Positions 1 to 25,042 of a DNA stretch of 64,000 bases are shown here, in pieces. The position numbers and the translations under genes are program-made. Below the pieces are notes generated by a model that worked only from the letters and a program-made list of their open reading frames with translations, searched no databases and was not told where the DNA came from. Source of the DNA: Ralstonia pickettii (GTDB taxonomy: Bacteria; Pseudomonadota; Gammaproteobacteria; Burkholderiales; Burkholderiaceae); the NCBI RefSeq assembly GCF_001699815.1, contig NZ_MCGB01000016.1:1-64000 (forward strand). The letters are read 5' to 3'. How positions within the stretch are numbered: position 1 is the first letter of the stretch; the number at the start of each line of letters is the position of its first letter.

Positions 1-640
1 GGGCGTACCCGATTCTGCGAGCCACTGAAAAACGAAACCGTACCCGTTTCTGCGCACGATCGCGCCCAAGGCTCAGCTCAAAGTGAACCTGTTTCTGCGG
101 GCAGGGCCTCGAATCGGGCGAACCTGTTTCTGCGGGACTTCTCGCAGAAACAGGTTCGCCGTATCTGCAAGCCTTCACGCCAAGCCTTTGGCCAATAAGG
201 CTTTTTACCCGCAGAAACAGGTACGCGGTGTAGAACGCCCAAGCCTTGAGATATCGGCAAGCAGCCTTCCCTCAACCAGGTTTCAGCGATGAAAGTTCAG
301 AATGCACAGGTCAGGCGGAAGGCTCGATGACGTGCAGCCACATCCAGCTTACCCGCCGCCACGCAGAAACAGGTACGCACGGTGTGCAACCAAGCAATTC
401 GAAGCGTGTGCTCGCTTTCTTATAGATGGCGCAAGAATAAGAGCCAGGAAGTCACGTGGATCGGCACGCACGCAGATTTGGGTACGGGTAGTCCGTGCGA
501 AAACGCCCTTACTCACGCAGAAACAGGTACGCTTCGTCAGTTATCAGGCTGAGGGAGCCCAAAAAATCGACGAATCCCTCGCAGAAACGGGTACGCACTC
601 GCAAAAGCGGACCGAATCGTGCGGCTCTCCCCCTTTTTTC

Positions 641-662
641 TGTGGATAACACTGTGGACAAC
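641..662 (+). promoter_or_regulatory. DnaA boxes in the origin
   Basis: A perfect DnaA box, TGTGGATAA, sits at 641-649. A near-perfect second, TGTGGACAA, sits at 654-662, 13 bp further on in the same orientation. They are embedded in the iteron cluster, as expected for an origin that recruits DnaA together with RepA. Confidence 0.75.
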
Positions 663-831
663 ATGATGTTGTCCCCGCAGATTCCGGTACGCCCAACGCG
701 CAGAAGCGGGTACGGTTTCGCGCAGAAGCGGGTACGCCATCGCGCAGAATCTGGTTCGGCCGTTCGCAGAATCTGGTTCGGTTTACCCCTCTGAACCAAG
801 CGCTGACAAGGCTTTGCGGGCCGCGTATACG

Positions 832-875
832 GTTTACCTGTAGTAAACGTAGAAGGTATATATAGCTTGTAGTAA
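832..875 (+). promoter_or_regulatory. Putative repA promoter and operator
   Basis: GTTTAC (832-837) and GTAAAC (843-848) form an inverted repeat with a 5-bp centre. A TATATA -10-like box lies at 857-862, with TTTACC at 833-838 as a possible -35 at 18-bp spacing. TGTAGTAA is repeated directly at 839-846 and 868-875, bracketing the -10. The dyad overlapping a promoter just upstream of repA suggests autoregulation. The promoter assignment is inferred from sequence alone. Confidence 0.45.
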
Positions 876-1019
876 GGAAAGGTCTTCCGTGGACAACCTT
901 AACGGTTGCCCACCGATGCCCTTCCCGCGACAACGAGCAAAATTCAGAAAACGTACCCAATTCTGCGTGACAAGGCGAAGGCGTTTTAGTACAAAGGGTC
1001 TGAACAATTCTTGCCCACC

Positions 1020-2096
1020 ATGGTCACCAAGCGCCTCACACCCAATGGGAAACCGGACGACAATTCGCCCGGCCGCATCATCGTCCCCTCGGGAGGGCAA
1101 GTCATTGCCGCGCCGGAGAAGTTTCAGCGCCTGTTCGACGAAGCACAGGCAATGGAACGAGAAGACGCCTGGCAAAGCGGCGAGGTCGGCTTCCTCAGTC
1201 GCGCCAGCGTGCAGGTCACCCTTCCCTATCGCGCTCCCAAAGGTGCACCGCCGGTCTGGACGCGTTCCAGCGGCAACATCTCGCTGATGATCCAGCCGGG
1301 CTACTTCACGCAGCAGCGCTCCGAGCGGGCCAGCAATGGGCGGCAGCGCATCGTCTCCGAGACCGTCTCTTTCGGCTATCCATATGGCTCGTATCCTCGC
1401 CTGATGCTGGCCTGGATCGGCAAGGAGATCATGGCCAAAAAGAAGCGCGGCGAATTCCAGGGCACGGTGGAAGACCGGCGCATTTCGCTGGGCAACTCGT
1501 TGTCCGAGTTCATGTACAACCTGGGCATCCCGATGGCCACGGGCGGCAAGCGGGGCACCATGACGCTGGTGCGCCAGCAGATGATTCGCCTCTTCTCTGC
1601 CACGATTGCCATCGTGCAGAACAAGTCGGCGCCCAGCAGCCAGAATCAGAACCAGGAACCGCTCTCGATCGATCGCATCGGTTATCTGTTGGCCGATCAG
1701 CTGTCCACCTGGTGGGATCCGATGCAGCCGGGCCAGGGCTCAATGTTCGAGAGCTTCGTGGTGCTGTCTGAACCGTTCTTCAACGAGCTCGTGAATCGGC
1801 CGGTGCCGGTGGATATGCGTGCGTTGAAGGCGCTCAAGCAATCGCCGTTTGCGCTGGATGTGTATTCCTGGCTCACATACCGCTTCTTTACGATCCAGAA
1901 GCGTACCGAGATCCCCTGGGAAGCGCTGCAGATGCAATTCGGTACCGAAACGGAAAGCGAGCGGAAATTCCGTGCGTTGTTCCGCAAGGCGCTGAAGGAC
2001 GTGCTGGTTGTCTATCCGGACGCCAAGGTGGATGCAGACTCTTCCAAGGCGCTGATTCTGCAGCCTTCGCGTACGAGCGTACGGAAGTTGGCCTGA
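1020..2096 (+). CDS. repA: Replication initiator protein RepA
   Basis: Plasmid-type replication initiator of the RepA family found on Burkholderiales second chromosomes and megaplasmids. About 358 residues, starting MVTKRLTPNG. Family-typical features include the YRAP region, a VSFGYPYGSYPRLML segment and a C-terminal winged-helix-like part (IPWEALQMQFG followed by a charged RKFRALFRKAL helix). It should bind the iterons upstream and open the origin. I chose ATG 1020; an in-frame TTG at 1011 is possible, and neither has a convincing ribosome-binding site. The last iteron (953-967) ends 52 bp upstream of the start, so RepA binding there could also repress its own gene. It is followed by a terminator. 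Family assignment is from recognition, not a search. Confidence 0.88.
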   Translation: MVTKRLTPNGKPDDNSPGRIIVPSGGQVIAAPEKFQRLFDEAQAMEREDAWQSGEVGFLSRASVQVTLPYRAPKGAPPVWTRSSGNISLMIQPGYFTQQRSERASNGRQRIVSETVSFGYPYGSYPRLMLAWIGKEIMAKKKRGEFQGTVEDRRISLGNSLSEFMYNLGIPMATGGKRGTMTLVRQQMIRLFSATIAIVQNKSAPSSQNQNQEPLSIDRIGYLLADQLSTWWDPMQPGQGSMFESFVVLSEPFFNELVNRPVPVDMRALKALKQSPFALDVYSWLTYRFFTIQKRTEIPWEALQMQFGTETESERKFRALFRKALKDVLVVYPDAKVDADSSKALILQPSRTSVRKLA

Positions 2097-2123
2097 AGTC
2101 AGCAAGAAGCGCCAGGCAAAAAG

Positions 2124-2149
2124 AAAGGGGAGCAGAAGCTCCCCTTTTT
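2124..2149. terminator. Rho-independent terminator between repA and the cold-shock gene
   Basis: A 10-bp stem (AAAGGGGAGC at 2124-2133, GCTCCCCTTT at 2138-2147) with an AGAA loop is followed by T residues on the + strand and preceded by A residues, so it can work in both directions. It separates the convergent repA and cold-shock genes. Confidence 0.88.
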
Positions 2150-2173
2150 CATCTCAGGCGATCAGCCCGAAAC

Positions 2174-2377
2174 TTATTCCGGCTTGATCGCCGAGGCTTG
2201 CAGACCCTTCGGGCCTTGCTTCACCTCGAAAGTGACCTTCTGGCCGTCCTTCAGGGTCTTGAAGCCCGAACCCTGAATTTCGGAGAAGTGCGCGAACAGA
2301 TCCGCGCCGCCGCCGTCCGGAGTGATGAAGCCGAAGCCTTTGGTTTCGTTAAACCATTTGACAGTACCCGTGGCCAT
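2174..2377 (-). CDS. CspA-family cold-shock protein
   Basis: A 67-residue single cold-shock domain starting [18 protein letters not shown]. The RNP1 motif KGFGFI and the RNP2-like DLFAHFS are both intact, and the length is standard for the family. Such proteins bind single-stranded nucleic acid and melt mRNA structure, especially after temperature downshift. A good ribosome-binding site (AAAGGAA) precedes the ATG. The gene points toward repA and lies between repA and the divergent parAB operon, an unusual place for a housekeeping RNA chaperone. A promoter about 115 bp upstream implies a roughly 110-nt leader, as seen for other csp mRNAs. Confidence 0.95.
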
Positions 2378-2492
2378 GCAAAAATTCCTTTAAATAACAA
2401 AAAACACGTCGTCCAGCCGATCCGGACATCGCACGAAGAACCGGCTGATTCCGAATCTTGCGTAGACAAAGTCTTCAGACGACTGTCTGAGC

Positions 2493-2521
2493 ATCATAAC
2501 CAGTTTGGAGCGGAGTGTCGA
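2493..2521 (-). promoter_or_regulatory. Promoter of the cold-shock gene
   Basis: Read on the minus strand, TCGACA (2516-2521) and TATGAT (2493-2498) are separated by exactly 17 bp, a good sigma70 promoter. It would place the transcription start near 2486 and leave a leader of about 110 nt before the ATG at 2377. The rest of the 2378-2792 gap holds this leader and the parAB promoter region. No further gene is seen. Confidence 0.55.
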
Positions 2522-2725
2522 TGGGCGGCATTTTTCCGAAATGTCGCTTTTATGCATCTCACTGGTAAACACCTAGGAAGCCCGTAAATGCCGGGTTGAA
2601 CGCATAAAGTTATGCGCCAAAGACCGCATTTACATCTCAATTTAGGTGAATTGAAAACCGCCTTTCCGTCACGTCTGCGGTCTCTCTATTTCGGTGAAAT
2701 TTGTATGAATTGAATTTTATCGAAC

Positions 2726-2754
2726 TTGTGTTTTCATGTCGCCTTCCCTAAGAT
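2726..2754 (+). promoter_or_regulatory. Promoter of parAB
   Basis: TTGTGT (2726-2731) and TAAGAT (2749-2754) are separated by 17 bp. The parS palindrome begins 11 bp after the -10 box, so bound ParB, or ParA through ParB, would sit near the transcription start and could autoregulate the operon. Confidence 0.45.
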
Positions 2755-2765
2755 GAGCGCTGCTG

Positions 2766-2783
2766 ACTTTCAGCGCTGAAAGT
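2766..2783. other. parS site 1 (centromere)
   Basis: ACTTTCAGCGCTGAAAGT is a perfect 18-bp palindrome directly before the parA ribosome-binding site. The same 16-bp core recurs inside parB and, with one change, upstream of galU. Burkholderiales secondary replicons use replicon-specific palindromic parS sites of this form, so this is the likely ParB-binding centromere. Confidence 0.8.
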
Positions 2784-2792
2784 GGAGGAGCA

Positions 2793-3461
2793 GTGAGCGC
2801 CAAGATCGTAACGGTATTCAATCAGAAAGGTGGCTGTGGCAAGACCACGGTCAGCATGCACATCGCCGGAACCCTTGGTTTGCGGGGGAGTAAGACGCTG
2901 CTGGTCGATATGGACGAGCAAGGAACGGCCACGCGGTGGGCCGCTCAAGCGCCCGAAGACAAGCCCTTCCCGGCTTCGGTGATTGGTTTGGCGCCTTCCG
3001 GTGGCGCCATGCACCGGGAGGTCCGCAAGTTTGTCGCGGACTACGACTACATCGTGGTCGATTGCCCTCCGGCGGTCCACTCACCGTCGTCGTCAAGCGC
3101 GCTGCTGATTTCCGACATTGCGCTGATCCCCGTGGTGCCGTCACCGCCTGATCTGTGGGCTGCAGTGGCTGCCAAAGCCCTGGCTCAGCAGGCCCAAGTC
3201 ACCAACGAGACGCTGCGTATTCGCGTGCTGGCGAACATGGTGCAGCGGCGTGTCTCGCTAGCCAAGCAAGCAATTGAAATTCTTGGTGATGATGGAGATA
3301 TTCCTTTGATGGATTCCATGATCGGATCGCGGTCTGCATTTCGTGAGTGCCAGGCCATCGGCGCGACGGTACACGGTGTGTCGGGCGCCCGGGAAGCCGT
3401 GAGTGAAGTCGACATCTTGATCGACGAGGTGTTGCAGTTGTTGCAGGAGGAACGTGTATGA
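2793..3461 (+). CDS. parA: Chromosome-partitioning ATPase ParA
   Basis: A 222-residue Walker-type ParA/MinD-family ATPase. The deviant Walker A motif KGGCGKTT is at residues 12-19, the Walker A-prime region LLVDMDEQG at about 35-43 and VDCPP (Walker B) near residue 90. There is no N-terminal helix-turn-helix, so this is the short (type Ib-like) form. It should use ATP-dependent non-specific DNA binding to move ParB-parS complexes during segregation of this replicon. The start is GTG at 2793, preceded by a strong GGAGGAG. It overlaps parB by 4 bp (ATGA), indicating translational coupling. Confidence 0.93.
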   Translation: MSAKIVTVFNQKGGCGKTTVSMHIAGTLGLRGSKTLLVDMDEQGTATRWAAQAPEDKPFPASVIGLAPSGGAMHREVRKFVADYDYIVVDCPPAVHSPSSSSALLISDIALIPVVPSPPDLWAAVAAKALAQQAQVTNETLRIRVLANMVQRRVSLAKQAIEILGDDGDIPLMDSMIGSRSAFRECQAIGATVHGVSGAREAVSEVDILIDEVLQLLQEERV

Positions 3462-4468
3462 GCGCGAAGTTGAAATCGCTCAAAGATGGCATGCTGGCCG
3501 GTATAGCCGCGGAGAAAACCAAGGCGACACCGGTCGATCGCTTTGCTTTGGCAGAAAAAGCGATTACATCGCATCCCCGCGGCCTGCTTGGCCAAGCGGC
3601 TCCCGTCTCCGCTTTCAGCGCTGAAAGTCCCGCACCTGCGAATACCTCCGAACGCCGGGTCATCAAGGTTCCGCTTGAACGGTTGCAGGAAAATCCGCTC
3701 AACGCCCGCCGCATCTACGATCCGCAGATCGTTCAGGAGCGGGCGGCATCCATCGCCACACACGGCCAGCAGACACCAGGGTTGGCAGCACCAGACCCCG
3801 CGCGGCCGGGCTGGTTTGTCCTGATCGACGGCCACTACCGTAAGCGGGCCTTGGCGGCTGCGGGGAAGGCCGAGATGGACTGCTTCGTCGAGGACGGCCT
3901 GTCGGACATTGATTTTTACCGTCTGTCGTTCGTCTTGAACGAGCAGCGGTCCGGCCAGTCCGTGCTGGACAACGCAATCGCTTGGCGACAGCTGCTGGAC
4001 GAAGGAAAAGTTAAAAAAGAAGAAGATATTTGCGAGATTACCGGCGTATCCGCAGGAACAGTCAACAAGACACTGGCGCTGTTGAAGCTGCCCGAGTCAG
4101 TGCTCGAAGTGATGAAGGAGCGGCCGGCCGGAATTGGTATCGCAACAGGATATGAGCTGACACTGTACTTTAAGAGCGCTGGCGAAGACCGCACGCGCGA
4201 GCTGGTGCATCGCGTACTGGAAGAGGGCCTCTCCAGTCGCGACGTGGAGCAGATCCGCAAGGTGGCCCAGGAGGGGCGTACCCGCAAGGTCAAGGAAGTC
4301 AGCCGCCAGTATAAGATCCGAAGCGCTGAAGGTGATCTTCTAGGCACAATTAAGGAATGGGATTCCGGACGCGTCATGCTTGATGTGAAGCTGGGAGACC
4401 GTGGTGCGCGGGAATCGCTCGTCGAGGCGCTAAAAAGCCGGTTTGGCCTGGACGTCGCCCTACTGTAA
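3458..4468 (+). CDS. parB: ParB/RepB-family partition protein
   Basis: A 336-residue centromere-binding protein. The ParB N-terminal nuclease-like domain includes LERLQENPLNARRIY (about residues 72-86) and the HYRKRALA motif typical of the CTP-binding patch. A central helix-turn-helix follows (CEITGVSAGTVNKTLALLKL), then a C-terminal dimerization part. It should load on the parS palindromes and act with ParA in segregation. The gene itself contains a parS copy (3612-3627), translated as the FSAES segment. A strong terminator follows within 25 bp of the stop. Confidence 0.92.
   Translation: MSAKLKSLKDGMLAGIAAEKTKATPVDRFALAEKAITSHPRGLLGQAAPVSAFSAESPAPANTSERRVIKVPLERLQENPLNARRIYDPQIVQERAASIATHGQQTPGLAAPDPARPGWFVLIDGHYRKRALAAAGKAEMDCFVEDGLSDIDFYRLSFVLNEQRSGQSVLDNAIAWRQLLDEGKVKKEEDICEITGVSAGTVNKTLALLKLPESVLEVMKERPAGIGIATGYELTLYFKSAGEDRTRELVHRVLEEGLSSRDVEQIRKVAQEGRTRKVKEVSRQYKIRSAEGDLLGTIKEWDSGRVMLDVKLGDRGARESLVEALKSRFGLDVALL
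3612..3627. other. parS site 2, inside parB
   Basis: CTTTCAGCGCTGAAAG is a perfect 16-bp palindrome identical to the core of parS site 1. It lies in the coding region for the variable linker near residue 55 of ParB, where extra sequence is likely to be tolerated. Confidence 0.75.
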
Positions 4469-4492
4469 TTTCGCCGCAGCTCTCTTCACCAT

Positions 4493-4519
4493 AAGCGCCC
4501 ATAGGGCGCTTTTTTTTTT
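4493..4519 (+). terminator. Terminator of parAB
   Basis: AAGCGCCC (4493-4500) pairs with GGGCGCTT (4504-4511) across an ATA loop and is followed by an uninterrupted T run to 4519. It lies 25 bp after the parB stop. Confidence 0.9.
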
Positions 4520-4561
4520 GCCTCAATTTCGCGCGCCAGAAGCCTGTCAGCGTGCTGAAGC

Positions 4562-4576
4562 GTACCCGTTTCTGCG
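4562..4576 (+). repeat. Dispersed RepA iteron
   Basis: An exact GTACCCGTTTCTGCG copy in the gap after the parAB terminator, preceded by AAGC as in most of the dispersed copies. The rest of the gap (4520-4788) holds the promoter of the next gene. Confidence 0.8.
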
Positions 4577-4692
4577 CGCGCCCACTTACGTCGGGTGCGT
4601 CTACAGAACGGCTCAACTCACTGCTAAAGATGCCTCGAAACGGGCAGGCTCGGCACCCGGGGGGTACCTCGGCCCTTGTGAATTCGACTGCA

Positions 4693-4766
4693 AATAGATT
4701 ATGCCGATATTAAAATAATGAAGTCTATTAAGACAACATTGAGGTTTTTAACCCTTCGTGTACACT
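4693..4766 (+). promoter_or_regulatory. Promoter and possible operator of the KfrA-like gene
   Basis: TTGAGG (4739-4744) and TACACT (4761-4766) are 16 bp apart. The -10 lies within the palindrome GTGTACAC (4759-4766). Upstream, AATAGA (4693-4698) and TCTATT (4724-4729) form an inverted repeat in an AT-rich stretch. KfrA proteins repress their own promoters, so these dyads are candidate operators. Confidence 0.4.
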
Positions 4767-4788
4767 AGATGGGCACTTGTTAGCCCTT

Positions 4789-5607
4789 ATGGCACGTCCC
4801 GGTCTCTATTTCTCGGCAGAGCAGCAGCAGCGGATCGTTGAAGCGATCCGGCGGCTGGATATCGCCTTCCCTCACGACAACGCCGTGTTCCTGGATGAAG
4901 TGATCGAAGCTGTCCAGGCTGTGACGCGTCGTGTTTATGGCGTTCGACGCTACGTGCAGTGGTTGGCGGAGGCGGGAGTACACCGACGTCCGAGCAATAC
5001 GACGCTACAGAAAGCGGTCGATCGAGCGCAGGGGCGCGGGCCGGCTGCAGCCGGTGCCGCAGCGGACGCGGTAGAGCCGTGGCCGATCCCATTGGCGCAC
5101 GCAGAAACGGGTACGCTTCCGGCGCGTGACGAGCGCAACCGGATCGCCTCGCGCGCCATTGGCGCGCCGGGTGCGGGCGCCGAATGGATGGAAGCGCGCA
5201 TTCGTGCAGAGGTGGCGGAGCGCGCGCTGGAACACGAAGCCGCGCGTAACCGGCAATTGCAGGCCGCCATGGCCGACTTGGAGCGTCGTCTCGGCGAGGC
5301 GCTTGCCACGGCGCCTGCCGTGCCCCCCAAATTGACCGATGCAACGCTAGAGCGCCTAGAGCAGACCATGGAAACCGTGACCCGCCTGGAGGGGGCGGCC
5401 AGCGCGCTGGCGGGGACGGAGCGCTTTCTGCGCTTGCAGAACGACGCGGTACGCCAGCAAACGCAAAGTGAAGCCGATCAACTGCGCCAGCGCATCCGCA
5501 CCCTCGAAGCCGAGGTCGCGCATTTGAACGCCCAGATCGACGCCTATCGGCGCACGCCCGAGCGCACCGCACCGGTCTCGCGCGGCTGGGTCAAGCCATC
5601 TTCCTGA
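4789..5607 (+). CDS. KfrA-like DNA-binding coiled-coil protein
   Basis: About 272 residues from ATG 4789; an in-frame TTG at 4777 is an alternative. The N-terminal 85 residues look like a helical DNA-binding domain (EAIRRLD, VQWLAEAGVHRRPSNTTLQKAV). The C-terminal half is rich in heptads (ARNRQLQAAMADLERRL, then LRQRIRTLEAEVAHLNAQI), indicating a long coiled coil. That arrangement matches KfrA-type plasmid proteins, which bind their own promoter and support partition by forming multimeric scaffolds. Its place directly after parAB fits. An exact iteron copy (5100-5114) lies in frame in the linker and is read as AETGTL. The function is inferred from architecture and context, since the sequence match is loose. 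Confidence 0.65.
   Translation: MARPGLYFSAEQQQRIVEAIRRLDIAFPHDNAVFLDEVIEAVQAVTRRVYGVRRYVQWLAEAGVHRRPSNTTLQKAVDRAQGRGPAAAGAAADAVEPWPIPLAHAETGTLPARDERNRIASRAIGAPGAGAEWMEARIRAEVAERALEHEAARNRQLQAAMADLERRLGEALATAPAVPPKLTDATLERLEQTMETVTRLEGAASALAGTERFLRLQNDAVRQQTQSEADQLRQRIRTLEAEVAHLNAQIDAYRRTPERTAPVSRGWVKPSS
5100..5114 (-). repeat. Dispersed RepA iteron inside the KfrA-like gene
   Basis: CGCAGAAACGGGTAC, the reverse complement of the consensus iteron, lies in frame in the interdomain linker of the KfrA-like gene. Confidence 0.78.
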
Positions 5608-5672
5608 TTTCTTGGCGCACTGTTAGCGGGCGCTTACTGGTCTGGCCAGCCGCAAGTTGGCGTAAAGCGGTA

Positions 5673-5687
5673 CGCAGAATTGGGTAC
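5673..5687 (-). repeat. Dispersed RepA iteron upstream of galU
   Basis: CGCAGAATTGGGTAC matches the iteron variant seen at 953-967. It lies 9 bp from a parS-like palindrome. Confidence 0.7.
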
Positions 5688-5695
5688 GCTTTTTC

Positions 5696-5715
5696 AACTT
5701 TCGGCGCTGAAAGTT
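5696..5715. other. parS site 3 (one mismatch)
   Basis: AACTTTCGGCGCTGAAAGTT is a 20-bp palindrome broken only by G in place of A in the left arm. It shares the parS core of the two perfect sites and lies about 3 kb from site 1, giving a clustered centromere around parAB. Confidence 0.65.
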
Positions 5716-5874
5716 GATGCGACGGCGTTGCAACCGGTTGTAGGAAAGGCGGCAACGCAGTGCCCGCCACGTTGCGCGGGGCACGCCAGATCGTGCGCCA
5801 CCAAAGGTTGGACCCGGGGGCTTACGCTGGCATATGACTTGCTCATGACGCTACGTCTCACCAATGGAGTTGTC

Positions 5875-6825
5875 ATGAACGAGAAGATCACCAAGGCCGT
5901 GTTTCCCGTGGCGGGGCTCGGTACACGTTTTCTACCCGCCACCAAGGCCAGCCCGAAAGAGATGCTGCCGATCGTCGATAAGCCGCTGATCCAATATGCG
6001 GTGGAAGAGGCTGCCGCTGCGGGTATCACGGAGATGATCTTCATCACGGGCCGCGCCAAGCGCGCTATCGAAGACCATTTCGACAAGGCGTACGAGCTTG
6101 AAACTGAACTGGCTGCCAAGAACAAGCAGGCGTTGCTGGAGATGGTGCAGTCGATCAAGCCGGCGGGCGTCGAGTGCTTCTATGTGCGCCAGCCCGAGAC
6201 TCTGGGGCTGGGGCACGCCGTGCTCTGTGCGCAGAAACTGGTACGCGACGAACCCTTCGCCGTGATCCTGGCCGATGACTTGCTGGACAACCAGCCGCCA
6301 GTCATGCAGCAGATGACGGAACTTTACGATCACTACCGCTGCTCCATCGTCGGCGTCGAAACGATTGCGCCGGAAGCCTCGCGCTCGTACGGCGTGGTGG
6401 CTGGCCGTGAATGGGATGACCGCCTGGTCAAGCTCGATGGCATCGTCGAAAAGCCCGCGCCGAAGGATGCGCCGTCCAACCTGGGCGTGGTCGGGCGCTA
6501 CATCCTGACGCCGCGCATCTTTGATCATCTGCGCAATCTGAAGCCGGGCGCCGGCGGCGAGCTGCAGTTGACGGACGCCATCCAGAGCCTGCTGGCTGAA
6601 GAGCAGATCCTGGCTTATCGCTACCGTGGTCAGCGCTTCGATTGCGGCAGCAAGTTCGGTTACCTGCAGGCGACCGTCGAGTTCGCGCTGCGCCATCCGG
6701 AAGTGCGTGCTGACTTCGAGGCGTATCTGCATGACCGCCTTGGCCTGTCGCACACGCGGGAAGATTTGTCTGCCGAGGTGGAATCGTTGGTCCGCGACGC
6801 CATTCCGTTGAGCGTGGCCGCCTGA
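5875..6825 (+). CDS. galU: UTP-glucose-1-phosphate uridylyltransferase
   Basis: Makes UDP-glucose from UTP and glucose-1-phosphate for cell-envelope sugars. About 316 residues, the usual GalU length. The nucleotidyltransferase signature GLGTRFLPATKASPKEM is at about residues 14-30. Further motifs are EEAAAAGI, the catalytic ADD region (ILADDLLDN) and FDCGSKFGYL near the C-terminus. I chose ATG 5875 because GGAG lies 6 bp upstream; the reading frame stays open upstream but has no GalU-like residues. A degenerate iteron-like sequence (6230-6244) falls in the gene and may be chance. It is a chromosomal-type housekeeping gene next to a plasmid-type origin, which supports a second chromosome. Confidence 0.95.
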   Translation: MNEKITKAVFPVAGLGTRFLPATKASPKEMLPIVDKPLIQYAVEEAAAAGITEMIFITGRAKRAIEDHFDKAYELETELAAKNKQALLEMVQSIKPAGVECFYVRQPETLGLGHAVLCAQKLVRDEPFAVILADDLLDNQPPVMQQMTELYDHYRCSIVGVETIAPEASRSYGVVAGREWDDRLVKLDGIVEKPAPKDAPSNLGVVGRYILTPRIFDHLRNLKPGAGGELQLTDAIQSLLAEEQILAYRYRGQRFDCGSKFGYLQATVEFALRHPEVRADFEAYLHDRLGLSHTREDLSAEVESLVRDAIPLSVAA

Positions 6826-6837
6826 GCATCGCCGCCT

Positions 6838-6892
6838 TCAGAATCGAATCGGCCGTGCGGGTTTCCGCACAGGTTGCCTCGGCTGATTCTGA
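6838..6892 (+). terminator. Compound hairpin after galU, likely terminator
   Basis: An outer inverted repeat, TCAGAATC (6838-6845) and GATTCTGA (6885-6892), encloses an inner stem GTGCGG (6855-6860) and CCGCAC (6865-6870). There is no T run, so termination is less certain. It could instead be a regulatory dyad for the downstream permease operon. Confidence 0.4.
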
Positions 6893-7115
6893 GAAACCGC
6901 ACACTTCTCCTGTCGTCCACCGTTCCGTCGATTTCCCGCAAAGCCTCGCGCCACGGGCTTTTGCGGCGGATCGGCGAGTCTGCTTTTCGCATGGAATGCT
7001 TCTTGAGTAAGAGCGACCACCCATAAACCGGCGGACCGCTCGGACGTCGCACACGCAGCTGGGTGTGCCGACATGTCACAAGCAAAGGCCGCCGCCAACG
7101 CTCCAAGGAGACACC

Positions 7116-8456: not shown

Positions 8457-8459
8457 CCC

Positions 8460-10372
8460 ATGTCGCCAACAGACGGCCACCCCGACCTTGCCCCACCCGC
8501 ACGCGGGCGCGGCTGGCGCGTGGCTGTCGCGCTGGCCATGGCGGCATGCTGCGCAGCAGCGGGATGGGGCGCTTACGCCGTCGCCCTGCAGCGCTACGTT
8601 GCCACGCGGGCCGAAGAGGCCGGCCAGCGCACCACCTTCTACGCGCAGAACCTGCGCAGCACACTGGCGCGCTATGAATCATTGCCGAGACTGGCGGCGT
8701 TGGAACACGTGCTGCACGTCGCGCTTCTAGAGAACCCCGAGGCCGGCGACGCCGTTCCGCGCCGTGCAGCCAACGCCTATCTGAAAGAAGTCCAGGCGGC
8801 CACCGACTTGGCCGCCGCTCACCTGATCAATACGACCGGTCTCACGATTGCGGCCAGCAACTGGGATCTGCCGACCTCGTTCGTCGGCCAGAACTACGCG
8901 TTCCGCCCGTACTTTGTCGAAGCCATGCGCGAAGGGCTCGGCCGCTTCTACGGCGTCGGCAACACCACCGGCGAGAACGGCTATTTCGTCGCCGCCCCCG
9001 TGCGCGAAGACAACAAGCCGATCGGCGTGGTGGTCGTGAAGGTCAACCTCGACGCGTTCGAGGCCACCTTGTCGCGCAGCGGCGATACGGTGCTGCTGGT
9101 GGATCGGCACGGCGTGATCTTCCTGTCGTCCGTACCCGAATGGAAATACCGCACGCTCGGCACCTTGAGCGCGAACCAGCGCGCCGCACTCGACGCGACG
9201 CGCCAGTACGCGCCGCACATCCTCACCCCGCTCGGCATGAACGATGGGCGAGCCGCGAGCGTACCCTTTTCTGCGGACCATCCCCCGCAGACCGTGCGCG
9301 TGGCATTGCCCGGAAAATCGGTATCGACGCTGCGTGTGCAGTACCGCCCGGTGGGGCTGCTCGGCTGGCAAGTCGCCGTGTTGATCGATCCGCGCGATGA
9401 GCAGCGCACCGCGCTGGTGGCCGGTGCGAGCGCCGCGTTTGCGATGGCGCTGATCTTTGCCGTGCTCGTCGCTTTGCGTTTGCGTCAGCGCCGGCGCGAA
9501 GAGCAGCACCGCGCGCGCGCCGCGCTGCGCGAAGTCCAGCGCGATCTGGAAGCGCGCATCGCCCAGCGCACTGCCGAGTTGACGTCCGCCAACACCGCAC
9601 TCGCCGGCAAGGTCGAGGCGCTTGACGCCGCGCAACGCATCCTGCGCGAAACGCGCGATGCCGCCGTGCAGGCCGGCAAGCTCGCCGTACTCGGCCAGAT
9701 GGCCGCCGGCATCACGCACGAACTCAACCAGCCGCTCACCGCGCTCACCACGCTGTCCGACAACGCCAACCAGCTTGCCGAGCGCGGCCGCATCGACGAA
9801 GTGCGCGGCAATCTCACGCACATCAGCCAGCTTGCCGAACGCATGGGGCGCATCGTTTCACACATCAAGGCGTTCTCGCGCAAGGGCGATGGGGCACGCG
9901 CTGCCGTGTCGGTAGACGAAGCCATCCGCCAGGCGCTGATGCTGGTTGAGACGCGTCGCCGGCAGGCCGGCGTGACCGTGGTGACCGAGCCGGTGCCGAC
10001 CGATCTTGCGGTCTGGGCCAATGCCGTGCGGCTTGAGCAGGTGCTCGTCAACCTCATCCGCAACGCCATCGATGCCACCGCCGAGGCGCCCGCAGCCGAA
10101 TCGGCGATCGTGCGTGTGAGCGTCCAGCCCATCGAGAAATGGGTACGCATCACCGTGCGCGACTTCGGCCTGGGCATTCCCGCCGACGTGCTGCCGCGCC
10201 TGTTTGAGCCGTTCTTCACCACCAAGGACGATGGTCAGGGCCTGGGGTTGGGGCTGGCGATTTCGCTGGCGATTATCGAAGATTTTGGCGGCCGGCTAGA
10301 AGGTCGCAATGCCGGTGACGGCACGCCGGGCGCAGAATTCATCATCGAGCTTGAACGCGTTGTGAAACCCAC

Positions 10373-10376: not shown

Positions 10377-11727
<1,351 letters not shown>

Positions 11728-11731
<4 letters not shown>

Positions 11732-15883: not shown

Positions 15884-16333
15884 TTTTCGCAGTGCCGCAA
15901 GGCACGCAGAAACGGGTACGCTCCACGTCGATTTGACGGTATTGCGCAGGCAATATTGCGGCGCAACATCGGCCCTCCAGGCCGGGCGGCGGACAATCCC
16001 CTATCGCACGGTCGTGCGCTTTCCGGTAAAGTCCCGCGACTGACTGCACGCGCCGGCGACCCTGGCGCGGCGCACAAGAGCGCTGTACCCATGGCGCCTT
16101 CGCTTCACACTCCGACGCACTCCCGGTGCACGCATGCCCGATCCGGCATCGCTCGCCCGGCAGGTCTTCCGCTGTTTCGCCAACGTCGTTTGTCTTCGTG
16201 GCGCGAACGCCGGCAGGCGAGCGTCCGGACGCGATGCAGGGCGCATGCGGGGGAGCGACGGTGTTGGGCCAGCGCATCTTCGAGACGCATCGCATTCAAG
16301 CAATCGCGACGGACAAACAAGGAGCAGGTTCGC
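15884..16333. other. Gap before livJ
   Basis: This 450-bp gap holds one exact reverse iteron (CGCAGAAACGGGTAC, 15905-15919) and a TTGCGC...GCGCAA dyad around 15940-15966. Open frames here are upstream extensions of the livJ frame without family-like sequence. The livJ promoter must lie here, but I cannot place it with confidence. Confidence 0.55.
15905..15919 (-). repeat. Dispersed RepA iteron
   Basis: An exact consensus copy (reverse orientation), 22 bp after the diguanylate cyclase stop codon. Confidence 0.78.
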
Positions 16334-17494: not shown

Positions 17495-17532
17495 TCTTCG
17501 GTTCTCGTTGAAACCCTTTGAACGAGACAGGC

Positions 17533-17568
17533 GGGGCGTAGCTAAACCTACGCCCCATCGTTTTTTTT
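17533..17568 (+). terminator. Terminator or attenuator between livJ and livH
   Basis: GGGGCGTAG (17533-17541) pairs with CTACGCCCC (17548-17556) across a 6-nt loop, followed by an eight-T run at 17561-17568. Partial read-through would give excess binding protein over permease. Confidence 0.9.
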
Positions 17569-17624
17569 GTGGCTGCCTGGTGACTGCTTTGGTCTCGTCC
17601 GGCCGCACCTCACTCTGATTCATC

Positions 17625-18506: not shown

Positions 18507-18516
18507 GGAGACCGAC

Positions 18517-19425: not shown

Positions 19426-19432
19426 GGCCGCC

Positions 19433-20226
19433 ATGCTCAAACTCACATCCATTTCCAAGCGCTTTGGCGGCCTGTCGGTCTTGCAGGACGTCAACATTGA
19501 CGTGCCGCAAGGCAGCATCTTCGGTTTGATCGGCCCGAACGGCGCCGGCAAGACGACGGTGTTCAATCTGATCACCGGCCTGCTCGCACCCACGGGCGGG
19601 GCGCTCACGTTCAATGGCGAGAACCTGGTCGGCAGAAAGCCGCACCAGATCACGCAGATGGGCATCGCACGCACGTTCCAGAACATCCGCATCTTCAAGG
19701 AGATGACGTTGCTGGAAAACGTCGTGGTGGGCATGCACCGGCATCTCGACTACGGTGCGCCGGGCCTGCTGCTCTCGCTGCCAAAGTACCGCGCGGCCGA
19801 GCGGCGCGCGCGCGACCGTGCGCTCGAGCTGCTCTCGTGGGTCAAGCTCGACCACAAGGCGCATGACATTGCCGACAACCTCTCGTACGGCGACCAGCGC
19901 AAGCTTGAACTCGCGCGGGCCTTGGCCACCGAGCCCAAGCTGCTGCTGCTCGACGAGCCCGTCGCCGGCATGAATACCGGCGAGAAGGTCGACCTGATGG
20001 CCGAGATCGAAAACATCAAGGCGCGTGGCTACACGATCTTCATGATCGAGCACGACATGCGTTTCGTGATGGGCCTGTGCGAGCGCATTGCGGTGCTGAA
20101 CTTCGGCCGCATCATCGCAGAGGGGCCGCCAGAGGCGATCCGCAACGACCCGCAAGTCATCGAAGCGTATCTGGGCCGGGATGATGACGATGAAGCGACC
20201 GGCGATGCCGCGCAGAAGGAGACGGC

Positions 20227-20230
<4 letters not shown>
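19433..20230 (+). CDS. livG: Branched-chain amino acid ABC ATPase LivG
   Basis: 265 residues, one of the two ATPases of the transporter. Walker A GPNGAGKTT, ABC signature LSYGDQRKLELARAL and Walker B LLLLDEPVAGM are intact. The C-terminal region IEHDMRFVMGLCERIAVLNFG is typical of LivG. I chose ATG 19433, which has GAGG upstream; ATG 19412 inside livM lacks a ribosome-binding site. It overlaps livF by 4 bp. Confidence 0.93.
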
Positions 20231-20952
<722 letters not shown>

Positions 20953-20964
20953 GTGTTCCGAACG

Positions 20965-21029
20965 CGCCTCGGCATGCAATGTTGCCGAGGCGTAAGAACC
21001 GCATATCCATTGGGTTTGCGGTTCTTTTT
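20965..21029 (+). terminator. Double hairpin terminator after livF
   Basis: The first stem is CGCCTCGGCA (20965-20974) with TGCCGAGGCG (20983-20992). The second is AAGAACCGCA (20994-21003) with TGCGGTTCTT (21017-21026), running into T residues to 21029. An iteron follows 12 bp later. Confidence 0.85.
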
Positions 21030-21040
21030 CACCCAAAAGC

Positions 21041-21055
21041 GTACCCGTTTCTGCG
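21041..21055 (+). repeat. Dispersed RepA iteron
   Basis: An exact GTACCCGTTTCTGCG copy, preceded by AAAAGC, in the short gap between the liv terminator and the convergent LysR gene. Confidence 0.8.
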
Positions 21056-21060
21056 TACGC

Positions 21061-22008
21061 TCAAAACCCCGTCAACACGTGTCGCTGTGCGTCGAACAAC
21101 GCGATCAACGCGTCGGCCACAGCCCGCACGCGCGGTGATCGTCGAACGTCGGGGTGGATCACCAACCAGATTTCTCGATGCAGCGCGGGGTCGTCGACGG
21201 GCAATCGACGCAAAAGCGTACCCGTTTCTGCGGGCGCGCCGAGCAGGTGCGGGAGCGCGGCGACACCCAGTCCGGCCAACGCTGCCTGGTGCATTGCTGC
21301 CAGATCACTGCAGCGCAAGACCACGCGACGTTCGCCTGCGTAGTTGTCCAGCCAGCGCTGCTGCGGCACGTGGCGCAGGTTTTCGTCGTAGCCGATGAAT
21401 TCCCATTCGGATTCGGGGCGTGCGAGCACTTCTGCGGTGGCGTACAGACCATAGCCGAGGTCACCCAACGGCCGTGTCGCCAGGGCAGACGACGTCGGGC
21501 GCGACAAGCGCACCGCCAAGTCAGCTTCGTGCGCCATCAGGTTGGCGTTGCGCTTTTCACCCAGCAGCACGAGGTCGATGCCAGGCCATTGCCGGCGCAG
21601 GGTCGCCAGGTTTGGCGCGATGATATGGCTGGCCACCGTGGGCGGCGCGGAGATACGCACCGTCCCGCGCAAGCTACCGGCCCCGGCGGCTGCACGCGCA
21701 AAGCCGGCGGCTTCCTGCTCCATGCGTTCAGCGCGCTCGGCCAGCGCGTTGCCTTCGGCGGTCAAACGCCAGCCGCGCGGCAGGCGGTCGAACAGGCGCA
21801 CGCCCAACGATTGCTCCAAGGCATCGGCACGCCGCGCCACCGTGGTGTGTTCCACCGCCAGCCGCCGCGCTGCGGCTGACAAGCTGCCTTCGCGCGCCAG
21901 CACGAGAAAGTAGCGCACGTCATCCCACTGCAAGGAAGAAGAAGGTTCGGCCGCTGCCGCACGCGCAAGCGCACGCACTTTCTTCGGCCGGTCTGAGCTT
22001 TTTTGCAC
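21061..22008 (-). CDS. LysR-family transcriptional regulator
   Basis: 315 residues with an N-terminal winged helix-turn-helix (GSLSAAARRLAVEHTTVARRADALEQSLG) after a 27-residue alanine-rich extension, then the LysR effector domain. It is transcribed away from the quinone reductase gene at 22139 and is probably its regulator, as is usual for divergent LysR genes. The start is GTG at 22008 by open frame; no clear ribosome-binding site is visible. An exact iteron (21218-21232) lies in frame near the C-terminus and is read as AETGTL, the same peptide as in the KfrA-like gene. The inducer is unknown. Confidence 0.87.
   Translation of the reverse strand: MQKSSDRPKKVRALARAAAAEPSSSLQWDDVRYFLVLAREGSLSAAARRLAVEHTTVARRADALEQSLGVRLFDRLPRGWRLTAEGNALAERAERMEQEAAGFARAAAGAGSLRGTVRISAPPTVASHIIAPNLATLRRQWPGIDLVLLGEKRNANLMAHEADLAVRLSRPTSSALATRPLGDLGYGLYATAEVLARPESEWEFIGYDENLRHVPQQRWLDNYAGERRVVLRCSDLAAMHQAALAGLGVAALPHLLGAPAETGTLLRRLPVDDPALHREIWLVIHPDVRRSPRVRAVADALIALFDAQRHVLTGF
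21218..21232 (+). repeat. Dispersed RepA iteron inside the LysR gene
   Basis: An exact GTACCCGTTTCTGCG, preceded by AAAAGC as at 21041, within the coding region of the LysR effector domain. It is only about 160 bp from the copy at 21041. Confidence 0.8.
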
Positions 22009-22111
22009 AGAAGATGGTCAGCTTTTGTGAATTCCCGGGTGATTCTGAACGGATTACGCTTGTTTCACAACGTGACGAACGTAGGACCCGTCATCGACGA
22101 ATCCAAAAAGC

Positions 22112-22126
22112 GTACCCATTTCTGCG
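22112..22126 (+). repeat. Dispersed RepA iteron
   Basis: GTACCCATTTCTGCG, one change from consensus, preceded by AAAAAGC. It lies between the divergent LysR and quinone reductase genes and overlaps the ribosome-binding region of the latter, so RepA bound here could affect its expression. Confidence 0.78.
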
Positions 22127-22138
22127 AGGACATTTGCT

Positions 22139-23137
22139 ATGCATGCCAAGGTGATCCAACTCCGCGAACCAGGACCAGCATTGGGTTTGCGGCCCGCCAG
22201 CCTGATGTTGCCGCCGCCCGCACCAAACGCGTTGACGGTGCGGCACACCGCCATCGGCGTGAACTTTGTCGATGTGTATCACCGTGCCGGGTTGTATCCG
22301 GTGCCGGCATTTCCGGCGGTGCTCGGTGTTGAGGGCGTTGGCGTGGTGGAAGCCGTGGGTACGGATGTACGCGGCTTTGTGGTTGGCCAGCGCGTGGCCT
22401 GGGCCGGCCTGATGGATGGCGCGCCCGGCGGCTACACCAGCCACCGCAACATCCCGGCCGAACGCGCGATTACCTTACCCGATGCGCTGGATGACGAAAC
22501 CGTGGCCGCCACGTTGGTGCGCGGCATCACCGCACACATGCTGCTGACGCGGGTACGGCAGGTGAGCGCCGGCGATACGGTGCTTGTGCACGCGGCAGCC
22601 GGCGGTCTGGGCGTATTGCTGGTGCAGTGGGCCAAGCGCCAGGGTGCGCACGTGATCGGCACGGTTGGCAGCGAAGCCAAGGCCGCCGTCGCCATTGGGC
22701 ACGGTGCGGACCACGTCGTGCTGTATCGCCAGCAAGATGTGCGCGACGCCGTGCTGCAACTCACTGGTGGAGAAGGCGTCGACTACGTGATCGACGGCGT
22801 TGGCGGCGCGATGCTGCCGGCCTCGTTGGCGGTGACGCGGCCGTTCGGGATGGTGGCTAGCATCGGTCAGGCGGGCGATGTCGGCAACGCGCAAACGAAC
22901 GTCGTCGATCTCGCGGCGCTTGGGCCCGCGCGCTCCATTGCGCTGGCGCGGCCAGGCGTGTTCCGTTACATGGCCGATCTGTCGAACTACCGGACGGGGG
23001 CACAGGCAGCATTGCAGCGCATGCTCGATGGCGTGCGCGTGCCGGTGGGCGGTACCTATGCACTCGAAGATGCGGCCGCCGCGCACACCGCGCTGGAGGC
23101 CGGGCAGACCTCGGGTGCGTTGCTCCTACGCCCTTGA
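22139..23137 (+). CDS. NADPH:quinone oxidoreductase, zeta-crystallin type
   Basis: 332 residues of the medium-chain dehydrogenase/reductase superfamily without zinc ligands. The substrate part has NFVDVYHRAGLYPVPAFPAVLGVEGVG. The Rossmann nucleotide motif is VHAAAGGLGVLLVQWAK near residue 150. The family reduces quinones with NADPH by one-electron steps. GAGGA lies 10 bp before ATG 22139. A divergent LysR gene is the likely regulator. Confidence 0.9.
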   Translation: MHAKVIQLREPGPALGLRPASLMLPPPAPNALTVRHTAIGVNFVDVYHRAGLYPVPAFPAVLGVEGVGVVEAVGTDVRGFVVGQRVAWAGLMDGAPGGYTSHRNIPAERAITLPDALDDETVAATLVRGITAHMLLTRVRQVSAGDTVLVHAAAGGLGVLLVQWAKRQGAHVIGTVGSEAKAAVAIGHGADHVVLYRQQDVRDAVLQLTGGEGVDYVIDGVGGAMLPASLAVTRPFGMVASIGQAGDVGNAQTNVVDLAALGPARSIALARPGVFRYMADLSNYRTGAQAALQRMLDGVRVPVGGTYALEDAAAAHTALEAGQTSGALLLRP

Positions 23138-23171
23138 GAACCCTGCGCGGCGCAGGGTTTCCATGCAAAGC

Positions 23172-23186
23172 GTACCCATTTCTGCG
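23172..23186 (+). repeat. Dispersed RepA iteron
   Basis: GTACCCATTTCTGCG, identical to the copy at 22112, preceded by AAAGC, in the gap between the quinone reductase and YciI genes. Confidence 0.78.
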
Positions 23187-23264
23187 GGACGCTCGGCGTT
23201 GTTGTTTCACGTTGCCGGGTCTCGTGTTTCGAAGGTGTCACCTCATCCGATAAGGAGCCATCGC

Positions 23265-23582
23265 ATGCTGTACCTGATTCTTTTCAACTACACCGCACCG
23301 CTCAAAGCACTCGACCGCGTGCTGCCTGCGCACCGCGCGCATCTCGATGCCCACTATGCGAGCGGCCACTTCCTGATGTCGGGGCCGTTCTTCCCGCGTG
23401 AGGGCGGCGGCATCCTGGCGCGTGCCGGTTCTCGCGAAGAGATCGACGCCATCCTCGCGCGCGACCCTTTCGTGATCGAAAACCTCGTGCAGGCGCGCGT
23501 CATTGCCTGGGACCCGAATCGTCGCAGCGCAGACGTACCGCAGGCGTGGTTGCCAGACGCCGTGGTTGCGACATCGACCTAA
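23265..23582 (+). CDS. YciI-family protein
   Basis: 105 residues, a small ferredoxin-like alpha/beta barrel protein. It begins MLYLILFNYTAPL and carries the conserved AHRAHLDAHYASGHFLMSGPF, including the His and Asp typical of the family, and DPFVIENLVQARVIAWDP. YciI proteins are dimeric putative enzymes, some fused to or paired with catabolic enzymes; the activity here is unknown. ATAAGGAG precedes the ATG. The longer open frame upstream is not coding. Confidence 0.88.
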   Translation: MLYLILFNYTAPLKALDRVLPAHRAHLDAHYASGHFLMSGPFFPREGGGILARAGSREEIDAILARDPFVIENLVQARVIAWDPNRRSADVPQAWLPDAVVATST

Positions 23583-23634
23583 AACCGGTGCGGCGCCGCC
23601 GCTATCATGTCGATCCGTCCTGATGTGAATCGAC

Positions 23635-25038
23635 ATGACCGACACGCCGCCGCCTCAACCGGATATGCCGCGCCAGCCATGGTGGCGGCGCGCGATTGCC
23701 CGACTGCCCTTCGGTCGCGAGCATCTGGTGTTCGTGATTGCCGGCGTGATCGGCTGCGCGGGCGCCTTGTCGACGATCCTGTTTCGCGAGTGCCTGCGTC
23801 ATCTGCAATGGTGGTTCTCGGGTACGGACCAAGGATTGGTGGCTACGGCGCGGGCGCTGCCTTGGTGGGCGCGCCTGCTGGTGCCGACCGTGGGTGGACT
23901 GCTGGCAGGCATCACCTTGCAGGTGGGCCTCAAGTGGATCCCGCGCAAAGGCGCTGAAGACTATATGGAGGCCATTGCGGTGGGCGATGGCGTGCTCAGC
24001 GCGCGGCAGAGTTTGGTACGCAGTGCGTCGTCGTTGTGCTCGGTGGCCAGCGGCGCGTCGATCGGGCGCGAAGGGCCGATGGTGCAACTGGCAGCAATGT
24101 GCGGCTCGCTGGTCGGCCGCGTGCTGCGGCACTGGACGCCCGTACCAGTCGAGCAATTGCGTCTGCTGGTGGCATGCGGCGCGGCTGCTGGCATCACCTC
24201 TGCTTACAACGCGCCCATCTCGGGCGCCGTGTTCGTCTGCGAAATCGTGTTCGGGGTCATCACCACGGCGACGCTGGGGCCGCTGCTGGTGGCGGCGGTC
24301 ACCGCCGACATCGTGGTGCGCCAATTCTTCGGCTATGGGGCCGTCTACGAGATGCCGCACTTCGATTTCGTTTCCGGCTGGGAAGTGCTGACGTATCTGG
24401 GCCTGGGTCTGGCGGCGGGGATGGTGGGACCACTGCTGCTGGGTTTGATTGACCGCGCGCGCGACGCGTTTGCACAGACCAAGCTGCCGCTCACGCTGCA
24501 ATTGGCCGCTGGCGGATTGATTGTCGGTGCGTTGTCCACGGGCGTGCCCGAGGTCTGGGGCAACGGCTACAGTGTGGTTAATGCCTTTCTGCACGAACCT
24601 TGGCTGTGGCAGACGGTGGCGCTGGTGCTGATCTGCAAGGTGGTGGCGACGGCGTCGAGCGCGGGCTCGGGTGCAGTGGGTGGTGTATTCACGCCCACCC
24701 TCTTCTGTGGCGCGGCGCTGGGGTTGCTTTACGGCACGGGCATGCACGCGCTGCTGCCGGATGCGGCGCCGGTGCCCGTCAGCTACGCGGTGGTCGGCAT
24801 GGGGGCACTGCTGGCCGCCACCACGCATGCACCGCTCATGTCGATCCTGATGATCTTCGAGATGACGCTGTCCTACCAGGTGGTGCTGCCGCTCATGTTG
24901 GCCTGCATTACCGGCTATGTGACGGCACATGCAGCGGGTGCGCCGTCGGTGTATGCGCGCGCGCTGGCGCGCAATCGTCAGGACGCAGGAGACGACGCCC
25001 AGCACCTTCCAGCGCCATCAGACGGCACGCAGAAATAG
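23635..25038 (+). CDS. clcB: ClC-type chloride channel or transporter ClcB
   Basis: 467 residues, about 10-12 membrane helices. ClC selectivity-filter regions are recognizable: SGASIGREGPMVQ (GxEGP motif with the gating Glu), AAAGITSAYNAPISGAVFVCEI and GSGAVGGVFTPTLF. No cytoplasmic CBS domains are present. ClC proteins move chloride, sometimes exchanging protons, and help with acid or osmotic stress. The last codons and the TAG stop lie inside an iteron (25028-25042), which gives the tail GTQK. Confidence 0.9.
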   Translation: MTDTPPPQPDMPRQPWWRRAIARLPFGREHLVFVIAGVIGCAGALSTILFRECLRHLQWWFSGTDQGLVATARALPWWARLLVPTVGGLLAGITLQVGLKWIPRKGAEDYMEAIAVGDGVLSARQSLVRSASSLCSVASGASIGREGPMVQLAAMCGSLVGRVLRHWTPVPVEQLRLLVACGAAAGITSAYNAPISGAVFVCEIVFGVITTATLGPLLVAAVTADIVVRQFFGYGAVYEMPHFDFVSGWEVLTYLGLGLAAGMVGPLLLGLIDRARDAFAQTKLPLTLQLAAGGLIVGALSTGVPEVWGNGYSVVNAFLHEPWLWQTVALVLICKVVATASSAGSGAVGGVFTPTLFCGAALGLLYGTGMHALLPDAAPVPVSYAVVGMGALLAATTHAPLMSILMIFEMTLSYQVVLPLMLACITGYVTAHAAGAPSVYARALARNRQDAGDDAQHLPAPSDGTQK

Positions 25039-25042
25039 GTAC
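25028..25042 (-). repeat. Dispersed RepA iteron spanning the clcB stop codon
   Basis: CGCAGAAATAGGTAC, one change from consensus. The change creates the in-frame TAG at 25036-25038 that ends clcB. This is the last iteron copy I can find in the window. Confidence 0.72.

Follow-up and report, generated by a model that had tools for sequence, protein, structure and literature searches.

The first 64 kb of a contig from Ralstonia pickettii raise the question of why copies of a replication-origin repeat (iteron) should stand singly, within and between genes, at many places away from the origin whose repeat they match. This stretch (positions 1–64,000 of NZ_MCGB01000016.1, contig C16 of a source genome of 5.24 Mb in 113 contigs; the whole stretch is called the window below) carries part of an iteron array, the initiator gene repA and the partition genes parA and parB. 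Judged from this repA–parAB block and from comparison with complete relatives, the replicon is a secondary chromosome (chromid). In the plasmids P1 and F, the iterons involved in handcuffing and incompatibility exert negative control and adjoin the origin. In this study, we describe the distribution and conservation of the dispersed iterons in Ralstonia, Cupriavidus and related plasmids. On the sequence evidence, they are selected, origin-proximal, mainly chromid-borne sites and not relics, and a role for them as a brake on re-initiation is weighed against other explanations.

Dispersed iterons in the window and along the chromid

The window was searched for the 19-mer AAGCGTACCCRTTTCTGCG at up to three mismatches and for the core CGTACCYRTTTCTGCG at up to two. 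The 19-mer has 22 matches, whereas 100 shuffles average 0.06 and never give more than 1; ten lie in the array (1–967), 11 are dispersed and one is a weak match with three mismatches at 29177. A chance origin of the dispersed iterons was ruled out by the shuffles and by a reversed-pattern control. The dispersed sites, with their state in the 14 Ralstonia genomes compared below, are as follows.

4558..4576, plus strand: dispersed iteron, intergenic, after parB; in 14 of 14 genomes, 15 of 19 columns invariant versus 54 of 260 in the flank
5100..5118, minus strand: dispersed iteron within the open reading frame (ORF) 4777–5607; in 14 of 14 genomes, in the codon test
5673..5691, minus strand: dispersed iteron, intergenic, separated by 6 bp from a parS-like site; in 14 of 14 genomes, 19 of 19 columns invariant
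6230..6248, minus strand: weaker dispersed iteron within a nucleotidyltransferase (galU-like) gene; in 14 of 14 genomes, in the codon test
9257..9275, plus strand: weaker dispersed iteron within a sensor histidine kinase gene; in 14 of 14 genomes, in the codon test
15905..15923, minus strand: dispersed iteron with a GGDEF gene on one side and a periplasmic-binding-protein gene on the other; in 14 of 14 genomes
21037..21055, plus strand: dispersed iteron in the space separating the 3' ends of two convergent ORFs; in 14 of 14 genomes
21214..21232, plus strand: dispersed iteron within the minus-strand ORF 21061–22008 (LysR-like by reading); 19 of 19 columns invariant, 6 of 6 codons
22108..22126, plus strand: dispersed iteron closely preceding the start codon of a zinc-dehydrogenase gene; in 14 of 14 genomes
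23168..23186, plus strand: dispersed iteron, intergenic; in 14 of 14 genomes
25028..25046, minus strand: dispersed iteron at the 3' end of a CLC-type channel gene, overlapping its stop codon; 18 of 19 columns invariant versus 51 of 260 in the flank

These are the 11 positions at which the first-pass annotation had placed dispersed copies, its coordinates being right to within a few bases; the two that it called weaker, at 6230 and 9257 (there given as 9261), have at most two core mismatches and are present in all 14 Ralstonia genomes. Its count of about 15 clustered copies roughly holds, with 13 core copies in the part of the array inside the window. Its statement that none occurs at 25043–64000 also roughly holds inside the window, the core being absent at up to two mismatches from 25044–64000. 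The series is not limited to the first 25 kb, as had been proposed: on this contig the next copy is at 68,810, and other contigs of the draft genome hold two more conserved far sites. By reading of the ORFs, four of the 11 sites fall in genes, one on a stop codon, one between convergent gene ends and five in other intergenic places, in both orientations, and as read these contexts do not look like those of promoter operators.

Along the chromid, a site was counted as dispersed when it lay over 4.5 kb from the start of repA, and the distance of such sites from repA was tested on nine chromids, of which five are from Cupriavidus and four from Ralstonia. Of the 141 dispersed sites, 131 lie no more than 150 kb from repA (per-replicon binomial P of 6e-7 to 6e-18), a steep fall in density with distance from the origin across the nine, which is the test that the first pass had suggested. 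The tenth replicon, G018:C1 (a 4.69-Mb contig with several far sites), was counted apart and has 21 of 28 dispersed sites within the same distance; G294 (37 sites, one of them on another contig) and G279, the second CH34 record, stand outside the count, and G005 and G019 list identical places. Each chromid carries 11–28 dispersed iterons, single or in twos and threes, which comprise 35–64% of all its iteron copies. They are near-consensus, although in the comparison of array and dispersed consensus the thresholds differ between the classes and orthologous sites are counted many times. Two features of titration sites are therefore present, namely initiator-type sites outside the origin on the replicon that they would control, and their origin-proximal position.

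A matrix built from Cupriavidus-type loci only recovers the Ralstonia sites in the G008 chromid and finds no site of at least 12 bits in 20 of the 25 stretches sampled there (394 kb); two of the five stretches with sites lie at the origin and three were taken around known far sites. The 8–12-bit range holds a single weaker match, 11 kb from repA, so that there is no tail of weak sites in the sampled part. The main-chromosome scan suggested in the first pass returned no exact iteron from the presumed main-chromosome contigs, identified from contig number and genome size, of the four near-complete Ralstonia genomes (G008, G009, G012 and G015), a search that a crtS-like site of other sequence would escape, and two one-mismatch copies each on G009:C1 and G012:C1.

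Conservation in Ralstonia and Cupriavidus and absence from plasmids

All 16 Ralstonia genomes carry 31–46 cores each at up to one mismatch, with 0–2 matches to the reversed pattern (among the matches listed). Footprints and positions were compared in 14 of the 16, the contigs of G002 and G014 ending near repA. Over aligned parts these 14 are 84.6–94.3% identical in DNA to the window, and the 11 dispersed sites recur in every one at up to two core mismatches, in the same order, on the same strand and at nearly equal distance; the positional comparison called for by the first-pass annotation thus finds the places kept in all comparable genomes. Invariant columns make up 186 of 209 in the 19-mers versus 1382 of 2860 in the flanks (Fisher P = 1.5e-33). 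Flank invariance at the seven non-genic sites is 20–34% at four and 43–64% at three, and for seven of the 11 sites taken individually no other nearby 19-column window is equally invariant. In the four genic sites, degenerate codons with an invariant amino acid are nucleotide-identical in 18 of 20 cases versus 264 of 1175 elsewhere in the same genes (P = 4e-10); at four of the 24 site codons the amino acid varies. Invariant site columns beside diverged flanks, together with the frozen synonymous codons, show on this comparative evidence that selection acts on the DNA motif as such, both in genes and between them.

The same three far sites recur in the four near-complete Ralstonia genomes, at the following distances from repA.

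Far site 1, +75 to +118 kb, minus strand: CCCG; one mismatch in G009
Far site 2, +86 to +132 kb, plus strand: CCCAATTC
Far site 3, +141 to +228 kb, minus strand: CCCAT in three genomes, CCCG in G012

Their flanks align between G000, G008 and G012, which identifies positions C16:68810, C36:7383 and C109:32614 of the source genome as the three far sites.

In Cupriavidus the placement is different. Next to the CH34 repA, parA and parB are 83% and 71% identical to the window genes, and among 18 window genes queried besides repA only these two have counterparts adjoining it. The other 16 queries, compared with 160 kb around the CH34 repA (-40 to +119 kb) and counted when matching over more than 40% of the query length, gave three matches.

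MFS protein: 105 kb from repA, 52% identical
NtrC-type regulator: 5–6 kb upstream of repA, 43% over 308 of 452 residues
LysR-type regulator: 105 kb from repA, 30%, partial

CH34 nevertheless has 17 dispersed sites at up to one mismatch, and in the stretch read, the longer form AAAGCGTACC is found in eight of the 16 exact cores that are over 2.5 kb away from repA. A plus-strand site lies 5.9–8.2 kb upstream of repA in 32 of 37 Cupriavidus-type loci of sufficient length (up to one mismatch), L024, among the five without it, having a copy at -9.4 kb instead; two or more minus-strand sites lie 2.7–5.7 kb upstream in 36 of 38. The term Cupriavidus-type takes in L037 (titled Ralstonia sp.) and L017 (Burkholderiaceae bacterium 16), in which RepA is 92% identical and the layout is of the Cupriavidus kind. 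When the 32 aligned Cupriavidus sites, preselected at up to one mismatch, are compared, 15 of 16 core columns reach at least 95% identity versus 14 of 260 flank columns. The dispersed sites occupy both arms and other positions than in Ralstonia, so that the two genera keep different sites of the same spelling near the same origin. Different placement with the same spelling around the same origin points to a function tied to the origin rather than to the genes nearby, as far as sequence comparison can tell. Selective maintenance, a further feature expected of titration sites, is seen in both genera.

Among 299 sampled genomes of the family, exact cores occur in numbers only in the genera g1 (that of the window), g3 (that of CH34, taken as Cupriavidus from the CH34 coordinates of G279) and g5 (the genome of locus L047, RepA 87%); elsewhere there are six singletons, equal to the six matches of the reversed-pattern control (all among the matches listed). 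G299, of the Cupriavidus group, lacks an array and has only four exact cores (five when one mismatch is allowed); a different chromid initiator may be in use there, or the contig concerned may be missing. Eight plasmids whose RepA is 42–46% identical carry a somewhat similar iteron, CGCATANNNNGGGGC. They represent about five kinds (two from B. glumae, two from P. terrae, two sharing a RepA accession, one from B. plantarii and one from C. oxalaticus), and in all eight the exact copies lie within 2.5 kb of repA (112 of 112), diverged copies being such as would escape this exact pattern. With iterons scattered in the chromids and none scattered in the eight plasmids, dispersal tracks chromid status among the replicons compared here.

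The origin itself presents the array beside the rep gene that is a feature of iteron-controlled, plasmid-type replicons.

1..967, no strand: right part of the iteron array that precedes repA; the core occurs 13 times at up to two mismatches, the 19-mer ten times at up to three
949..967, plus strand: iteron ending 44 bp before the repA ORF, a candidate autoregulation site; 19-mer match
1011..2096, plus strand: repA, plasmid-type initiator, Pfam RepA_C (PF04796); profile match
2793..3461, plus strand: parA
3458..4468, plus strand: parB

The left part of the array is the end of contig C84 (five copies at up to one mismatch, 69,877–71,767), and the window start falls inside the array. An iteron near the position of 949..967 is also present in other Ralstonia loci. 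RepA and the array co-occur in 54 loci with RepA identity of at least 87%, RepA is 92% identical in four Cupriavidus chromid records, and RepA is presumably the binder of the array iterons. No solved structure of a RepA relative was found at E of 1 or below. A small cold-shock-like gene (by reading) lies between repA and parA (2174–2378, minus strand) and has no CH34 match over more than 40% of the query around repA. Palindromes resembling parS, CTTTCAGCGCTGAAAG, occur at 2767–2782, 3612–3627 and 5698–5713, two exact and one with one mismatch; the pattern has four window matches at up to two mismatches versus 0.02 expected, and the excerpt of PMC5450999 does not contain the string.

Proposed role and rival explanations

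The reading that we favour, with moderate confidence, is that the dispersed copies are extra-origin RepA binding sites, most likely exerting negative control on initiation by titration or handcuffing. In its support, the dispersed sites share the sequence of the array iterons before repA. Near-consensus sites at a short fork-travel time from the origin would bind RepA (titration), or RepA bridging of dispersed sites to the origin iterons would silence the origin (handcuffing). As they lie near the origin, the sites would double soon after firing, the RepA-binding capacity of the cell would jump and a second initiation in the same cycle would be delayed. At 35–64% of the copies, the dispersed sites would form a sizeable sink if affinities are similar. 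We infer RepA as the binder, its binding to single sites in cells, the inhibitory effect on replication and the timing. A precedent is found in Vibrio cholerae, in which distal sites for the initiator RctB about 40 kb from ori2 inhibit replication of mini-chrII when multicopy (PMC3937223).

Several observations weigh against this role or narrow it. Taken singly, four of the 11 sites (5100, 9257, 15905 and 23168) are no more invariant than some neighbouring 19-column windows. Conservation at exact positions exceeds what a count-based sink needs, and in four Ralstonia chromids all 50 dispersed sites lie on one arm, the parAB side, which titration alone does not predict; strict positions and this one-sidedness suggest that place matters beyond dosage, and looping, domain architecture or a positive role is possible. 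In a third genus with an array (G023), the 141-kb origin contig has one dispersed site and another contig has two, so that the strength of dispersal differs from case to case. Certain exact copies are found on other replicons and, in two genomes, on large main-chromosome-like contigs (among the matches listed). In V. cholerae, removal of the distal site chrII-10 by itself had no growth phenotype (PMC3937223), and mutation of three prominent chromosome 1 RctB sites, in genes or between them, had minimal effects on chromosome 2, of which one was weak and significant (PMC11711613).

Outside these four chromids, the one-sidedness has two other-arm exceptions, an exact copy 6.2 kb upstream of repA in L012 and a one-mismatch copy about 346 kb upstream in G001 (among the matches listed). 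One-way replication as its cause is unsupported: in the sampled G008 chromid all 11 stretches to the left of repA show a negative GC skew and 11 of the 14 to its right a positive one, and this leaves one-sided placement unexplained by one-way replication.

That the sites serve chiefly origin-domain architecture or segregation, RepA bridging them to the array in a compact domain, perhaps with ParB–parS, and replication control being a side effect, is in our view unlikely. The iteron at 5673 does sit 6 bp from the parS-like site 5698–5713, both being invariant in 14 genomes, the sites are position-specific and on the parAB side in four Ralstonia chromids, and RctB is known to bridge sites and loop DNA (PMC11711613); but only one of the 11 window sites adjoins a parS-like site, and in Cupriavidus the sites lie on both sides, at other positions. 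A positive action like that of DARS or crtS, in which the copies would remodel or reload RepA or time initiation rather than sequester it, appears improbable. Apart from a few flanking bases, no conserved module accompanies the plain iterons at these sites, and a conserved main-chromosome iteron was looked for and not found, the exact singletons G018:C8 and G294:C1 sharing no flanking homology. In favour of a positive action, position and order are kept in Ralstonia, even for far sites at least 75 kb from repA in four genomes, and a V. cholerae chromosome 1 RctB site acts as an enhancer (PMC3937223); crtS itself is unlike the iterons of that species (PMC11711613).

Regulation of the site-bearing genes by RepA or another protein is rather more doubtful still. 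Two sites stand near gene starts, 22108 upstream of the dehydrogenase and 15905 upstream of the binding-protein ORF, yet four of 11 lie in genes, one over a stop codon and one between convergent gene ends, and the profiled genes are functionally unrelated and mostly not found near the CH34 repA. Sites in promoters of related genes, as in a RepA regulon, are not seen among the window sites, and the V. cholerae initiator appears to regulate only its own gene, bar one weak effect (PMC11711613). Hardly credible is the view of the sites as chance matches or as neutral relics of origin duplications or of an ancestral plasmid backbone. In favour of this view, they share the array sequence and lie near the array; however, 0.06 matches are expected in the window, the sites are invariant while their flanks diverged, a synonymous constraint and a Cupriavidus footprint are evident, and eight related plasmids are without dispersed copies. 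Relics were rejected on the footprints and the synonymous constraint.

Cores on other replicons were also recorded. Single exact cores occur in L084–L089 (G016, G017), L109 (the CH34 171-kb replicon) and L114 (G012:C4), in unrelated contexts, and G016 and G017 alone hold six other-replicon cores versus the six control matches in 299 genomes (among the matches listed). The contexts of L084–L089, L109 and L116 were partly profiled (L110–L115 and L118 lie outside this set). The possibility that plasmid singletons are the plasmids' own origins was rejected on these eight partly profiled contexts, one of them (L088) being near a weak Rep3-type match; the other seven are near transposases, helicase, methylase, helix–turn–helix or unassigned ORFs. 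L091 (G000:C12), L093 (G000:C97), L110 and L111 (G009:C3) and L112 and L113 (G012:C3) represent two exact cores on shared DNA, which is 99.95–100% identical over 2-kb windows in three Ralstonia genomes and is probably one recently shared large plasmid, so that these sites are not independent.

Relation to known systems and meaning

The kind of site described here is already known from distal RctB sites, datA and origin-proximal DnaA boxes. Chromosome 2 of V. cholerae likewise has a plasmid-derived initiator and extra iterons tens of kilobases from the origin on the same secondary chromosome (PMC3937223); unlike there, each chromid here has 11–28 full iterons, the initiator is of the Pfam RepA_C family and footprints extend across species; a second type of site was not found here, no search having been aimed at one. 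The origin-proximal DnaA boxes and datA of Escherichia coli (Olivi et al., 2025; PMC12371093) are alike in being origin-enriched initiator sites with proposed early doubling and titration, whereas DnaA boxes are short and degenerate and occur throughout the genome (about 900 copies by the motifs of that paper), the sites here being few, long and near-perfect and nearly all on one replicon. Extra iterons off a chromid origin are also known from the second iteron cluster of Burkholderia cenocepacia chromosome 2, 140 kb away (Du et al., 2016; PMC4948915), which differs in having an unrelated iteron sequence and mainly one distal group. With the consensus from that paper, a distal group 133–163 kb from the main array was found in seven of ten g12 genomes among the matches listed (G050, G066, G079, G088, G106, G114 and G121), g12 being taken as Burkholderia from its iteron. 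By eye, the B. cenocepacia c3 iteron CCCATAAacggntACC (PMC4948915) resembles CGCAGAAACGGGTACG, the reverse complement of the window iteron, and c3 may have a related initiator. The extra iterons of P1 and F type, next to the origin like those of the eight related plasmids, are similar as negative control, whereas the chromid sites are scattered over at least 100 kb; F incC is mentioned in PMC11711613.

No description of dispersed iterons in Ralstonia or Cupriavidus was found in the open-access literature, a coverage outside which most subscription papers lie, and the core sequence has no match in open-access text; the excerpt of PMC8729776 contains no word beginning with iteron. What is new here is the initiator family, the wide scatter, footprints in two genera that place their sites differently, and the chromid–plasmid contrast.

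Different places in Ralstonia and Cupriavidus, an unrelated iteron in Burkholderia, RctB in V. cholerae and the lack of dispersed copies in eight plasmids lead us to suggest, tentatively and with less than even confidence, that scattering high-affinity initiator sites over the origin-proximal 100–200 kb may be a general, repeatedly evolved step from plasmid-like to chromosome-like, once-per-cycle replication. If so, dispersal would be usable as a sequence signature for calling chromids. A 2026 survey (PMC13342612) lists the 'timers' of chromids other than those of V. cholerae and Agrobacterium as awaiting identification, and reports that the chromosome 2 origin of C. necator contacts a large portion of chromosome 1. 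On how beta-proteobacterial chromids fire once per cycle, the 11–28 defined, evolutionarily frozen sites per chromid would offer a direct, editable handle, and chromids and plasmids of the same initiator family a comparative test.

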